Position numbers and translations under genes: made by a program. The notes beneath the pieces were generated by a model. The model saw only the letters and a program-made list of their open reading frames with translations, was not told where the DNA came from and made no database searches. Below are positions 22,252 through 30,319 of a DNA stretch of 36,827 bases, one piece after another (position 1 is the first letter of the stretch; every line of letters begins with the position of its first letter). The stretch comes from Clostridia bacterium (lineage in GTDB: Bacteria > Bacillota > Clostridia > Oscillospirales > Acutalibacteraceae): contig JAFSAC010000045.1 of assembly GCA_017442265.1 (NCBI GenBank), positions 1-36,827 on the forward strand, read 5' to 3'.

Positions 22252-23532
22252 TTATTGAGATTTTTTGGTCAGTTTCCCGATCAGCACGAAAAGAAGGTGC
22301 AAAGCGACCCCCACGGCGATCGCCACCACCAAATCAAAAATGACGGTAAGCAGGAAGGTGACCACCAGTACCGCGATATCGGTCACCCGTTTTTCTTTAA
22401 AAATCTTCACAAACGAGCGCCACTCGCTCATATTGTACGCTACCATAAAGAGGATAGCAGCAATGGTGGGCATCGGGATCAGCGCCGCATACGGCATCAA
22501 AAACAGCAGAACCAGCAACAGAACCAGTGCGTGAACCATACCGGCCACCGGGGTGCGGCCGCCGTTTTTGGCGTTGGCCGAGGTTCTCGCAATCGCACCG
22601 GTAGCGGGGATACCGCCAAACAGCACCGAGGCGATATTACCGACACCCTGTGCCACCAGTTCCGCATTCGGGTTATGCTTGGAATTCACCATACCGTCAG
22701 CGACCACACAGGAAAGCAACGATTCGATCGCGGCTAAAATCGCAATGGTGATCGCATTTGGGATCACAGCGATCATCTTCTCCATACTGAAATCCATACC
22801 GGCAAAATCCACCTTCGGGAGACCGGTCGGAATAGTATACAGATCGCCAATAGTATAAACCTCTTGACCCAGCGCCGGGATCACCGCCACCAAGACGGCG
22901 CTCACCACCACCGCAATCAGCGATGGCGGAATCCGTTTTTCCAGTTTCGGATAAACAATCAGAATAATGAGACTCACCCCGCCGATCAGAAGCGCCCACG
23001 GGCTGAAGGTGGCGATCGCGTGAAGATTGGCTTCCACCTTTTCCAGCGTTTCGATCGGGCGAATGCCGTCAGCATAGGTAAGACCGAGAAAATCCTTGAT
23101 CTGACCGAGTAAAATGGTTACCGCGATACCGCCGGTGAAACCAACGGTAATGGTATGCGGCATATACCGAATGAAGGAGCCGAGCTTCAAAACCCCCATG
23201 AAAAGGAGCAGGATACCCGCCATAACGGTGGCGAGGAACAAGCCGTCCATTCCCTGGGTCGCCACCACACCGGCAACGATCGTCGCAAACGCCGCAGTCG
23301 GGCCGGCGATCTGCACCCGGCTGCCGCCGAGCAGCGATACCACAAAGCCGGCGGCAATGGCGGTATACACCCCGCACGCCGGTTCCACACCGGAGGCCAG
23401 CGCCAGCGCAATGGACAGCGGCAGCGCAATGATCGCCACGATAATGCCGGCGATAAGGTCCTTCACAAACTGTTCTTTTGAATATCCACGCAAAGCGGAG
23501 ATGAGTTTCGGTTGCAGATAACATTCTTTCAT
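22252..23532 (-). CDS. SulP family anion permease lacking a STAS domain
   Basis: 426 residues with about 12-14 hydrophobic segments. The SulP signature is near the start (DLIAGIIVAIIALPLSIALA, residues ~25-44), then GSRVQIAGPTAAF and SLLSCVVADGMVNSKHNPN, and the IPATGAIARTSANAKNGGRTP stretch near 308-328. SulP proteins move sulfate, bicarbonate or other anions. The protein ends at FVLIGKLTKKSQ directly after the last helix, so the usual ~130-residue cytoplasmic STAS domain is absent. AAGGGGTG precedes the ATG. Substrate is undetermined. Confidence 0.92.
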   Translation of the reverse strand: MKECYLQPKLISALRGYSKEQFVKDLIAGIIVAIIALPLSIALALASGVEPACGVYTAIAAGFVVSLLGGSRVQIAGPTAAFATIVAGVVATQGMDGLFLATVMAGILLLFMGVLKLGSFIRYMPHTITVGFTGGIAVTILLGQIKDFLGLTYADGIRPIETLEKVEANLHAIATFSPWALLIGGVSLIILIVYPKLEKRIPPSLIAVVVSAVLVAVIPALGQEVYTIGDLYTIPTGLPKVDFAGMDFSMEKMIAVIPNAITIAILAAIESLLSCVVADGMVNSKHNPNAELVAQGVGNIASVLFGGIPATGAIARTSANAKNGGRTPVAGMVHALVLLLVLLFLMPYAALIPMPTIAAILFMVAYNMSEWRSFVKIFKEKRVTDIAVLVVTFLLTVIFDLVVAIAVGVALHLLFVLIGKLTKKSQ

Positions 23533-23633: not shown

Positions 23634-26630
23634 TTATTCCGCAAGTTGGCGATCAAATTGGTCAAAAAGGCGTTTCTTGATCTCCTGCATCGCTTGTTCC
23701 TGCACCTTCATTACCTGCCGGTCGTAGGTGACAAGACCGTTGGTTTCATCCTCCACGTCGCTGACCTGGGTCAGCACAGCCGCACAAAGACCGTCCTTTA
23801 TTGCCGGGATCACCTCATGGAGATACAGGTCGGTAAGCGCTTTTTCAAAATCCGCAAGGGTGGTGAAAAAGCGATAGCCGTAAGTTTTATCGAGGTTGAA
23901 GGAATGCTCCGGCACCTTACAGGAATAGCCGCCGAATTCGGAAAGCACCGCCGGGCGGTCGGGGCGGGTGTGTAAGCGAATCTTTTTGAAATAGATATGC
24001 TCACTGGTAACGTCGCTGTTTTTCTCGGTAAACCAACCGGAGGTCGCATCAAATACCCGGGTGGGATCAAGTGCTTTCAGCTTTTCATACATCCGATCGG
24101 CATCGTACTGCCCCCACCCCTCATTAAAAACGGTGTAGTAGCAGACCGACGGATGATTATAGAGAAGATCGAGCGTTTGTGCCGCCGTTTGCTCAAAAAG
24201 TTCCCGGCGGCGATCGGTCGCCGAATGGGTGATGCCCTTTTTCAGTCCCACAGTGGGCAGGACGGTATCAAGGAGATAGTGATACCGCCCGGAATTGACC
24301 ATATCCTGGAACACGATCATACCGTATTTATCGCAGTAGTAATAAAACAGTTCCGGCTCCACTTTGATATGCTTGCGAAGCATATTAAAGCCGAGTTTTT
24401 TCATCTCTAAAATATCAAAGAGGTACCCGTCGGGGGTGGCGGGGGTATAAATGCCGTCGCTGAAATATCCCTGGTCCAGCAGCCCGTGGAAAAAGGTGGG
24501 CTTGCCGTTCAGACAGAGGTAAGCCCGGCCGTTTTTCGCTTCCACCGACACGGTGCGAAGCGCAAAATAGGAATCGACCACATCCTCACCGGAGGACAGA
24601 GAAAATTCGTACAAATGCGGGTTTTCAGGCGACCACCACACCGGGTTTTCGATCGGAACGGTGACCGTGTCACCTGTAAAGTCAACCACCTTGTCACCGT
24701 CTTGTCCCTTGATTTTCAAGGTTTTTTGCGGTTCGCCGCCGGTTACCTGAAGGGTCACCGAATGAAGCGTGGAGGTGATCTTCAAAGCGGAAATATACCG
24801 CTTTGGAACGCTTTCCAGCCACACCGTTTGCCAGATTCCGCTAACGGGGGTGTACCACATGCCGCCGCGATCGCGCCGTTGTTTCCCATACGGGAAATCA
24901 AAATCCAGCGTATCGGTCACCAACACCTCCAACCGGTTTTCTCCGGCAGAAAGGAAGGCGGTTATATCCCATTCAAAGGGGGTATACCCGCCGTGGTGGA
25001 CACCGACCGGGTGCCCGTTTATGGACACCTCCGCCACCTGATCCACCGCGCCGAAATGAAGCAATACACGCTCCTTTTGGAAACCGTCCGGGAGCGAAAA
25101 CAGACGGGTGTAGCGATACTTCTCGCCCGGTTTCAGCTCCCGCTGAATACCGGACAGGCGGGATTCGGGCGGAAACGGAACGGTGATCTCACCGAGCGAG
25201 GTCTCCTCCCCTTCCCGCTCGACCGACAACTCCCATTGTCCATTCAGGTTGAAAAAGGAATCCCGGCGCAGTTGCGGGCGGGGATATTCGGTCTGCCAGT
25301 CGGTTTTAGAATCGGTTTCAAACGGGGTTTTCAAGGTGTGGTTTAACCGAGGGGATTTGCGGGGACGGATAAGGAGTAACAATACCGCCAGCACCGCCAC
25401 TGCAATCAAGGCGGCTAAAAAGATGTTTTGGTTCGGGATAAACGACTGGGTGCCGTCGTTGTTCACAATCATTTCAGCATTTTTCAGCACCGTTTTTCCG
25501 ATGAAGGGGCCGACCATACCGGGAATCAACACCTGCGAGAAGATGCGAACCCCCTGGAACATACCGGCGCGATCCTCCGGGATAAGGTCACGAATTTTCG
25601 CGCCAAACACCGCCATACCCGACAGATACCCGCTCATCATCAGCAGCGACCCGACAAACACCAAAGCGGTGGAGCGGAACAGGTACAGCATCACGTAACC
25701 GACCGACAGCCACAAAAGAGAGATAGCGGCCGAAAAATCGAACTGCTTTTTATCGTACACCTTTCCCCAAAAGGCGGTGACCACCGATGCTAAAATAATG
25801 GCCGGTGCCATAACAAACACGTAGTTGGTCATTTTGAGGGATACCTCATAATACAAAATGAGGTACGGCATAAAGATCTGAATGGAAATATTAAAAAGGA
25901 TAAAGGCGAAAAGATAAAAATACAGCGAACGGTTGTCTTTTACGGTCGAAGGGCGAAAACCGTGGATCACCGCAGAAAGGTAGCTTTGCTCCGATTTTTG
26001 GATCGGCGGTTCTTTGATCAGAAAACAACCGATAATACCGATCAGGGTAACCACCGCACCGATGACGGTGAAGATAACGCTCCAGCTTTCGGCTTTTTCC
26101 AGATCAAATGCCATAAAGCCGCCAAACACCACCAAAATCGCCACCAGCGGCATCATCGCGTTGATGCCCTCGGCTGCGCCGCGGTTGGTGCTGTCGGTGC
26201 TGTCGGTCAGCCACGCATTAAAAGCGGCATCATTCGCACTCGAGCCGAAAAAGGTCATAATACAATCCAGCGCGATCACCAAAGAGGCACCAAGAGAGGC
26301 GGCGGATGCCACCGATGGGAACCAGCTCCCCAGCAGGTCGGTGCGGATAAACACGAAACCGAAAATGGAGATGCCCCATAAAATATAACCGCCGCAGATG
26401 AACAGCTTACGCTTGCCGATCTTGTCAGACAGCGCACCGATCAGGACGGTGGTGAGGGTCGCCGCCACGGCGCTGGCCGCCACCATAAGCGAAATGTCCG
26501 CCGCCGAGGCGTTAAACATTTTATAGATAAACACGTTGAGATACATATTCTCGACCACCCATGCGACCTGCCCGATCAGGCCAAACAGGGTGAGTACCGA
26601 CCAAAACCGCGGGGACAGTTTGGTTTTCAT
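23634..26630 (-). CDS. Fusion of an MFS sugar transporter with a GH2 glycosidase
   Basis: 998 residues in one uninterrupted frame from ATG 26630 (GGAGG 7 nt upstream). Residues ~1-423 are an MFS permease with 12 predicted membrane helices and the loop motif GALSDKIGKRK (~65-75). A charged linker spans ~424-455. Residues ~456-998 are a GH2 enzyme: jelly-roll domain with FNLNGQWELS, Ig-like domain, then a TIM barrel with acid/base Glu837 in NEGWG and nucleophile Glu898 in SEFGG. With 12 helices and a cytoplasmic N-terminus, the GH2 part should be cytoplasmic, placed to cut a beta-linked sugar as it enters. GH2 includes beta-galactosidases, glucuronidases and mannosidases; specificity is not clear. 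Such MFS and GH2 proteins are normally separate. Confidence 0.9.
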   Translation of the reverse strand: MKTKLSPRFWSVLTLFGLIGQVAWVVENMYLNVFIYKMFNASAADISLMVAASAVAATLTTVLIGALSDKIGKRKLFICGGYILWGISIFGFVFIRTDLLGSWFPSVASAASLGASLVIALDCIMTFFGSSANDAAFNAWLTDSTDSTNRGAAEGINAMMPLVAILVVFGGFMAFDLEKAESWSVIFTVIGAVVTLIGIIGCFLIKEPPIQKSEQSYLSAVIHGFRPSTVKDNRSLYFYLFAFILFNISIQIFMPYLILYYEVSLKMTNYVFVMAPAIILASVVTAFWGKVYDKKQFDFSAAISLLWLSVGYVMLYLFRSTALVFVGSLLMMSGYLSGMAVFGAKIRDLIPEDRAGMFQGVRIFSQVLIPGMVGPFIGKTVLKNAEMIVNNDGTQSFIPNQNIFLAALIAVAVLAVLLLLIRPRKSPRLNHTLKTPFETDSKTDWQTEYPRPQLRRDSFFNLNGQWELSVEREGEETSLGEITVPFPPESRLSGIQRELKPGEKYRYTRLFSLPDGFQKERVLLHFGAVDQVAEVSINGHPVGVHHGGYTPFEWDITAFLSAGENRLEVLVTDTLDFDFPYGKQRRDRGGMWYTPVSGIWQTVWLESVPKRYISALKITSTLHSVTLQVTGGEPQKTLKIKGQDGDKVVDFTGDTVTVPIENPVWWSPENPHLYEFSLSSGEDVVDSYFALRTVSVEAKNGRAYLCLNGKPTFFHGLLDQGYFSDGIYTPATPDGYLFDILEMKKLGFNMLRKHIKVEPELFYYYCDKYGMIVFQDMVNSGRYHYLLDTVLPTVGLKKGITHSATDRRRELFEQTAAQTLDLLYNHPSVCYYTVFNEGWGQYDADRMYEKLKALDPTRVFDATSGWFTEKNSDVTSEHIYFKKIRLHTRPDRPAVLSEFGGYSCKVPEHSFNLDKTYGYRFFTTLADFEKALTDLYLHEVIPAIKDGLCAAVLTQVSDVEDETNGLVTYDRQVMKVQEQAMQEIKKRLFDQFDRQLAE

Positions 26631-26668
26631 CGTGATTCCTCCCATACTTCATCGGATTATATTTTATA

Positions 26669-29131: not shown

Positions 29132-30268
29132 TCATTGCCACCACAACTCATTATAACATAGTTCCGGTGGTGTATTATGCCAACCAACCGAATAGGCAGT
29201 TAGATCTCCTACAGAGTATGTTAATATAGATAAATCCGGTGAAAGCAGCATTATATCATTATAATAAAATTGTGTCGCTAATACCTCTCTGCTAAATGTT
29301 GTATACATATCTTCTGCACCAAAGAGATGTAATATTTCATGCGCAACTGTTGATGCCCTGTCTTTTGGAACTGCTTCACCCAAATATCTTCTAAAGATAA
29401 CGGCATGCTCAGCATAAGCTGCATATCCGATAGAATTGCTATGTCGTGCATATGAGATACCATCTTTATTTAGCAGATTCAAAAAAATCAAATCATTTTC
29501 TCCCTGTTGATTTTTATAATAAGAATATATATCCCAGTTATTCTCAAACCCTAATTTTTGTGCAGCTTGGTCTAATACGTCCTTTGAAGAACCGCCCACG
29601 TTTAAATTTTTATTCACCGTGCCCTCATATTTTAAAGACTTGTTTGTATTATATTTTGATAAGCTTTCAATTTTGAATTTCAGGTTGTTGTTGTGTTTTT
29701 TTGCTTCTTCTTCAAGAAAAGCTAACGCCGGTTTAATGGCTGTTTGAGTAAAATCATCAATTTCTTGTTTTTCCCAATGACTCTCATTATCATCAATAAA
29801 TAATATAACAACCAGAACATCACCCGAAAGTTTTTTATTGTTTCCCAACCCAAAATTAGGTCTTAATTCTTCTTGTGTCATATCTGTTATTCCGGGCAAA
29901 ATTTGATACGATTCTGAACTGTTTGTTTCGGTAGTATTTGACGATGACACATCACTGTCGATGTTGGGCTTTTGTGTACTGCTGTCAAAAGGCGTTTCAT
30001 TTAATGATACTGAATTTGATGATGAATCGCTGTTCGTCTTGCTATGTGTTTCTGTATTACTTGACGTTACCGTATCAGTTGACGTTACCGTATCAGTTGA
30101 CGTTACCGTATCGCTTGACGTTACCGTATCGCTTGACGTTACTGTATCGCTTGACGTTACCGTATCGCTTGTCGCTTCCGTATCGCTTGTCGGCTTTTCC
30201 TCAATACTACAAGCAGAAAAACTGAACGCAAGAACTGCAGCCAACAATAAACATACCAATTTTTTCAT
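29132..30268 (-). CDS. Lipoprotein zinc metalloprotease (zincin) with repeat-rich linker
   Basis: 378 residues from ATG 30268 (AAGGCGGTGAT upstream). Signal peptide with lipobox FSAC, Cys20. A low-complexity Ser/Thr/Asp stretch follows (~25-120) with tandem SDTVTS hexapeptides, a spacer that could hold the enzyme off the membrane or be glycosylated. The catalytic domain spans ~130-378, with AHEILHLFGAED: zinc ligands His310 and His314, Glu311 as base and Asp320 as likely third ligand, then a NDIM Met-turn-like motif near 337. It should act outside the cell. The last ~10 codons coincide with a promoter-like TATGTTATAAT, so the C-terminus may have been extended into a neighbouring unit. Target unknown. 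Confidence 0.85.
   Translation of the reverse strand: MKKLVCLLLAAVLAFSFSACSIEEKPTSDTEATSDTVTSSDTVTSSDTVTSSDTVTSTDTVTSTDTVTSSNTETHSKTNSDSSSNSVSLNETPFDSSTQKPNIDSDVSSSNTTETNSSESYQILPGITDMTQEELRPNFGLGNNKKLSGDVLVVILFIDDNESHWEKQEIDDFTQTAIKPALAFLEEEAKKHNNNLKFKIESLSKYNTNKSLKYEGTVNKNLNVGGSSKDVLDQAAQKLGFENNWDIYSYYKNQQGENDLIFLNLLNKDGISYARHSNSIGYAAYAEHAVIFRRYLGEAVPKDRASTVAHEILHLFGAEDMYTTFSREVLATQFYYNDIMLLSPDLSILTYSVGDLTAYSVGWHNTPPELCYNELWWQ
30061..30186 (+). repeat. 18-bp tandem repeat inside the metalloprotease gene
   Basis: Seven 18-bp units, the first six nearly identical (TTGACGTTACCGTATCRN on the plus strand), encoding repeated Ser-Asp-Thr-Val-Thr-Ser. Unit number could change by slippage without a frameshift, altering linker length. 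Confidence 0.9.
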
Positions 30269-30289
30269 ATCGATCACCGCCTTAGGTGT

Positions 30290-30319
30290 ATTATAGCATA
30301 AAAGCGGCAGAGGGCGCAA
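30290..30319 (-). promoter_or_regulatory. Shared-type promoter, metalloprotease unit
   Basis: TTGCGC (complement of 30314-30319), 18-nt spacer, TGC then TATAAT (complement of 30290-30295). Confidence 0.8.

Follow-up and report, generated by a model that had tools for sequence, protein, structure and literature searches.

A gene in the window (the whole stretch of 36,827 nucleotides of Clostridia DNA that was analyzed) encodes an MFS transporter and a GH2 glycosidase as one polypeptide, and this transporter-enzyme fusion is real and conserved. It forms one uninterrupted frame on the minus strand (26630..23634) of 998 codons and a single terminal stop; a preliminary description had already reported a single MFS and GH2 frame of 998 residues, with the strand left unstated, and both the open reading frame and the Pfam matches bear this out. 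The longest open reading frame (26645..23634) starts at an in-frame ATG at 26645 and is five residues longer (1003 aa), and the ATG at 26630 is preceded by the Shine-Dalgarno-like GGGAGGA. In the Pfam search, the first half of the frame matched MFS_1 (E 2.9e-28; PF07690 score, 98.6 bits) and the second half matched Glyco_hydro_2_N, Glyco_hydro_2, and Glyco_hydro_2_C, all above the gathering score. AlphaFold2 gave a mean pLDDT of 89.2 for the whole protein and of 91.3 for the MFS half, with a pTM of 0.71 for the whole protein, a value that does not fix the mutual placement of the MFS and GH2 domains. The features are compiled in Table 1.

Table 1. Features of the fused gene, with positions in the window
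Feature	Position	Strand	Basis
Fused MFS-GH2 gene, 998 aa, ATG at 26630	23634..26630	-	Open reading frame; homologues joined in the same frame
MFS transporter domain, residues 1-423, 12 predicted TM helices, both termini predicted inside	25362..26630	-	Pfam PF07690; hydropathy and positive-inside pattern; AlphaFold2 MFS fold
Short polar linker, residues 424-449, without methionine	25284..25361	-	Linker comparison with homologues
Predicted group III furanosidase-type GH2 domain, residues 443-998, comprising sugar-binding, Ig-like, and TIM-barrel parts	23637..25304	-	Pfam; profile and fold comparison
E837 codon, predicted acid/base (N836-E837 motif)	24120..24122	-	Conservation; alignment to 9j6n
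E898 codon, predicted nucleophile	23937..23939	-	Conservation; alignment to 9j6n
T954 codon, loop-8 Thr replacing the Trp in group III GH2	23769..23771	-	Conservation; alignment

We propose that the protein imports small furanosides and carries its own hydrolase, that is, a unit of uptake and hydrolysis in one protein, and we consider this reading moderately probable. The N-terminal MFS half would bring a small glycoside into the cell, the linker of about 20 residues would keep the GH2 half at the inner surface of the membrane, and the GH2 half would cleave off the terminal furanose (beta-D-galactofuranose or alpha-L-arabinofuranose) by a retaining mechanism with two glutamates. The released sugar would then enter galactose or arabinose catabolism. 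We infer the direction of transport, the substrate, and any gain from the tether, such as equal dosage or local capture of the substrate. That a cytoplasmic furanosidase catches the substrate as it leaves the carrier, that hydrolysis thereby drives net furanoside uptake, and that such a system is widespread in hindgut Clostridia seems rather unlikely to us; if true, the capture-coupled furanosidase would be an undescribed route for these bacteria to galactofuranosides or arabinofuranosides.

Fused, adjacent, and dispersed relatives

The same domain order was looked for in relatives, as the preliminary description had proposed, and fused, conserved homologues were found. When one genome was scanned for each species, the 80 best loci matching both halves comprised 74 with a single frame open across the junction and 6 that were split. 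Hence, neither of the two doubts raised at the outset, an artefact at the junction and homologues that are always two genes, is borne out, since many relatives are fused. The list of 80 loci favors full-length matches, and therefore, 394 genomes sampled evenly across the order were also examined. The transporter of the clade, defined at ≥60% identity, was present in 36 of them. In 11 of these, the gene was fused (in one case truncated where the contig ends); in another 11, GH2 was the next gene; in 12, the GH2 of the clade lay at a different place in the genome; and 2 (G218 and G393) were without a GH2 of the clade. Both parts were found together in 34 of the 36 transporter genomes versus approximately 6 expected (Fisher; kinship ignored). 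A class-wide sample added five further genomes that are clearly fused.

The fused copies derive mostly from herbivore-gut MAGs labeled Clostridia, Oscillospiraceae, and Lachnospiraceae, with single fused MAGs labeled Erysipelotrichales and Treponemataceae (MAG labels taken as given), and one is from an isolate, Acetatifactor muris DSM 23669, whose fused homologue is 49% identical to the window protein over the best segment. Two fused copies (L098, 896-3809; G523, C64:1616-2894) are frameshifted inside the MFS half, with the junction apparently open; they are either sequencing errors or decaying genes. At another locus (L144, 4930-9304, minus strand), the gene after an unfused transporter from the clade encodes a GH3 enzyme with F5/8 type C domains, not a GH2, and the GH2 of the clade is on a different contig.

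The split pairs indicate how the fusion may have arisen. In three of them (L047 and L071 with TAA-ATG, L077 with TAG-ATG), an in-frame ATG comes immediately after the stop codon, four others have overlaps of four bases of the ATGA type (L146, L157, L160, and L165), and in most of the rest, 1 to 11 bases lie between the genes. A single substitution or indel would fuse such pairs. The fusion may thus have originated from a translationally coupled MFS-then-GH2 pair by loss of the stop codon or joining of the frames, and changes between the fused and the split state have occurred several times, probably in both directions. Recoding of a stop codon between the halves was considered and rejected: the same-frame split pairs have TAA, TAG, or TGA, and an ATG follows immediately or a few codons later, an arrangement that looks like ordinary coupled genes. 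A distant relative (L166, 4226-7298, plus strand) has the reversed order, with the GH2 gene first and overlapping the MFS gene; the operon link therefore occurs in both orders.

Whether joined or not, the two halves travel together, as follows from the pairwise distances of MFS and GH2, which are correlated with an r of 0.835 (largest value in 500 permutations, 0.22). This co-inheritance fits the uptake and hydrolysis of one substrate. On the other hand, split and dispersed relatives exist, and therefore, the fusion is not essential. It may even be a neutral by-product, with both halves acting independently on the same substrate and a tether without effect, a possibility that we take seriously while leaning against it. 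Consistent with neutrality, the concatenated tree (80 rows) has at least eight changes between fused and split, the split genes touch or share a few bases, with the stop directly before an ATG of the same frame in three pairs, and the parts lie apart in 12 genomes. However, next to a mostly split group (10/12 rows), the tree contains a wholly fused clade (18/18 rows) and a mostly fused clade (42/47 rows), big clades that have stayed fused across much divergence. Lone split members nested within the mostly fused clade look like fissions, and the long-lasting fused clades suggest long-term tolerance of the joined form at the least and perhaps selection in its favor.

The transporter half and its topology

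The MFS half is a member of the superfamily by its profile, its 12 TM segments, and its fold, which matches many MFS structures with Z scores of 33 to 38. Hydropathy averaged over 67 fused homologues placed all 12 TM segments within residues 1-440 and none beyond. In the same 67 sequences, the loops predicted to be inside carry 1.3 to 4.7 Lys/Arg per loop and those predicted to be outside 0.5 to 1.2; the inside loops are richer in positive charge, and the predicted location of the C terminus, and with it of the GH2 half, is therefore the cytoplasm. This positive-inside pattern supports, at the level of prediction, the earlier claim that the glycosidase is on the cytoplasmic side.

NorA, VMAT2, MCT1, and MelB are matched alike (Z 33-38; MelB, 33.9), and the fold fixes neither the substrate nor the direction of transport. 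A sequence search of the PDB for the substrate, with the protein and with profiles as queries, gave zero matches up to E 1. Likewise, the window protein had no match to the Pfam sugar-transport model MFS_2 at E up to 1, so that by this profile it falls outside the GPH symporters, but two unfused sister transporters exceed the curated cut-off of that model (27 bits), namely, L165, which lies in an operon with GH2 (47.9 bits), and L164 (33.0 bits). We infer that the MFS half is related to the GPH sugar symporters but has diverged from them.

An opposite direction of transport is conceivable: the GH2 half could make a product inside the cell, for instance by trimming galactofuranose glycans of the cell itself, and the MFS half could export this product or another compound. 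Efflux pumps such as NorA are at the top of the fold matches, and the UDP-galactopyranose mutase homologue of the source genome suggests that the organism may make galactofuranose itself. The rank of a fold match, however, says nothing about direction, and the sister transporter in an operon with GH2 exceeds the MFS_2 cut-off. We therefore regard export as improbable.

The GH2 half resembles group III furanosidases

Sequence, fold, and active-site markers all assign the GH2 half to the furanosidase type of group III (GH2_18/19). A profile search against solved structures ranked 7sf2 first (478 bits), followed by 9j6m/9j6n (429-431 bits) and 7xyr (287 bits), while the classical glucuronidases and LacZ fell far behind (at most 136 bits for glucuronidases and beta-galactosidases among the matches listed). 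The fold comparison agrees with the ranking by sequence (TMt 0.87-0.89 to 7sf2 and 9j6m/9j6n). 7sf2 is from Bacteroides cellulosilyticus and was deposited as a beta-galactosidase; a published assay for it was not found in the open-access literature. The closest functionally characterized structure is thus the beta-D-galactofuranosidase 9j6m/9j6n. 9J6M is of GH2_18 and 7XYR of GH2_19, which together form group III, with beta-D-galactofuranosidase and alpha-L-arabinofuranosidase as known activities (Lebreton et al. 2025, PMC12243196). The mark of this group is a Thr in loop 8 where others have a Trp, and an NxK motif in loop 8 marks the group I beta-hexuronidases (PMC12243196). Indeed, T954 is conserved in at least 90% of the 67 fused homologues and aligns with the Thr of 9j6n, and the NxK motif is absent from loop 8 of the window protein, which reads TQVSDVEDETNGLVTYDR.

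The two catalytic glutamates (837 and 898) pointed out in the preliminary description are in place. R752 (the Arg of strand 2), N836-E837, and E898, as expected for the GH2 family as a whole, are invariant in the 67 fused homologues, and so are H754 and Y880 of the active site. The substrates suggested there (galactosides, glucuronides, or mannosides) are probably wrong: with a GH2_18-like half in the furanosidase group III and without NxK, that list misses the likely substrate. The intact active site also bears on the idea that the GH2 half performs no catalysis but serves the transporter as a sensor or regulator. Sugar transporters with cytoplasmic regulatory domains do exist, LacS with its IIA domain being an example, but with both Glu and the Arg, His, and Tyr of the site invariant in 67 sequences, such a role is very unlikely here.

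Linker and junction

In the homologues, a median of about 21 aa separates the position of residue 427 from the YPRP motif. A second product from an internal start in the linker was considered and is not general, with no Met in the linker of the window protein and a Met in only 17 of 58 linkers. The MAG that contains the window is 84% complete and consists of 68 contigs, but a merger of two genes by assembly or sequencing error has a negligible probability because the junction is equally open in many independent MAGs and in the genome of the isolate A. muris DSM 23669.

Comparison with known systems

ORF1110 of Streptomyces sp. JHA19 (beta-D-galactofuranosidase of GH2_18, 9J6M/9J6N) shares the GH2 fold, both glutamates, and the loop-8 Thr with the GH2 half, at about 36% identity in the fold alignment; unlike the window protein, it stands alone, without a transporter. 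Approximately 80% of the GH2_18 members carry secretion signals (PMC12243196), whereas the GH2 half described here is predicted to be cytoplasmic. GH2_19, the second nearest subfamily (287 bits for 7XYR versus 429-431 bits for GH2_18), is mostly non-secreted, but 7XYR is without the NE motif (PMC12243196) that the window protein has. With GPH symporters of the MelB type, the protein has the MFS fold in common; it differs by reaching MFS_1 only and by its C-terminal enzyme.

Descriptions of MFS-glycosidase fusions were not found in the open-access PMC literature, although domain-architecture databases may already list the MFS-GH2 architecture. The nearest precedent is LplT-Aas, an MFS lysophospholipid transporter and an acyltransferase/acyl-ACP synthetase that are encoded in an operon in some bacteria and by a single open reading frame in others (PMC11416262). 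Both systems combine an MFS carrier with a cytoplasmic enzyme, in an operon or in one open reading frame; in LplT-Aas, the enzyme acts on the cargo of the carrier, and the co-inheritance of the MFS and GH2 halves is consistent with such a match here. They differ in that LplT-Aas has a lipid cargo and an acyltransferase rather than a glycosidase, from an unrelated enzyme family.

The fusion points to a furanoside carrier in uncultured hindgut Clostridia, and to our knowledge, few furanoside carriers have been characterized. It also indicates a cytoplasmic role for an enzyme subfamily whose members mostly bear secretion signals. The fused, coupled, and dispersed versions amount to a natural experiment on the benefit of tethering an enzyme to a transporter. 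Automatic names, either MFS transporter or beta-galactosidase/beta-glucuronidase, would fail to capture one of its halves or the substrate on which it probably acts.

Genomic surroundings

The genes around the fusion are unrelated to it. A SulP transporter gene is adjoining, and recJ, relA/spoT, and hemZ are farther off. The SulP-family protein (426 aa, 22252-23532, minus strand) covers the Sulfate_transp domain, and a STAS domain was not found in it; a 395-aa open reading frame (29132-30319, minus strand) had zero Pfam or NCBIfam matches. The neighbors of fused homologues (thioesterase, EamA, kinase, MatE, CBAH, and others) gave no lead to the substrate, and none is generally conserved; the fused gene is therefore a self-contained unit. 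Galactokinase, L-arabinose isomerase, and UDP-galactopyranose mutase all have homologues in the source genome. Either product, galactose or arabinose, could thus be used, and galactofuranose and arabinofuranose are both candidates for the sugar released by the importer-hydrolase that we propose.
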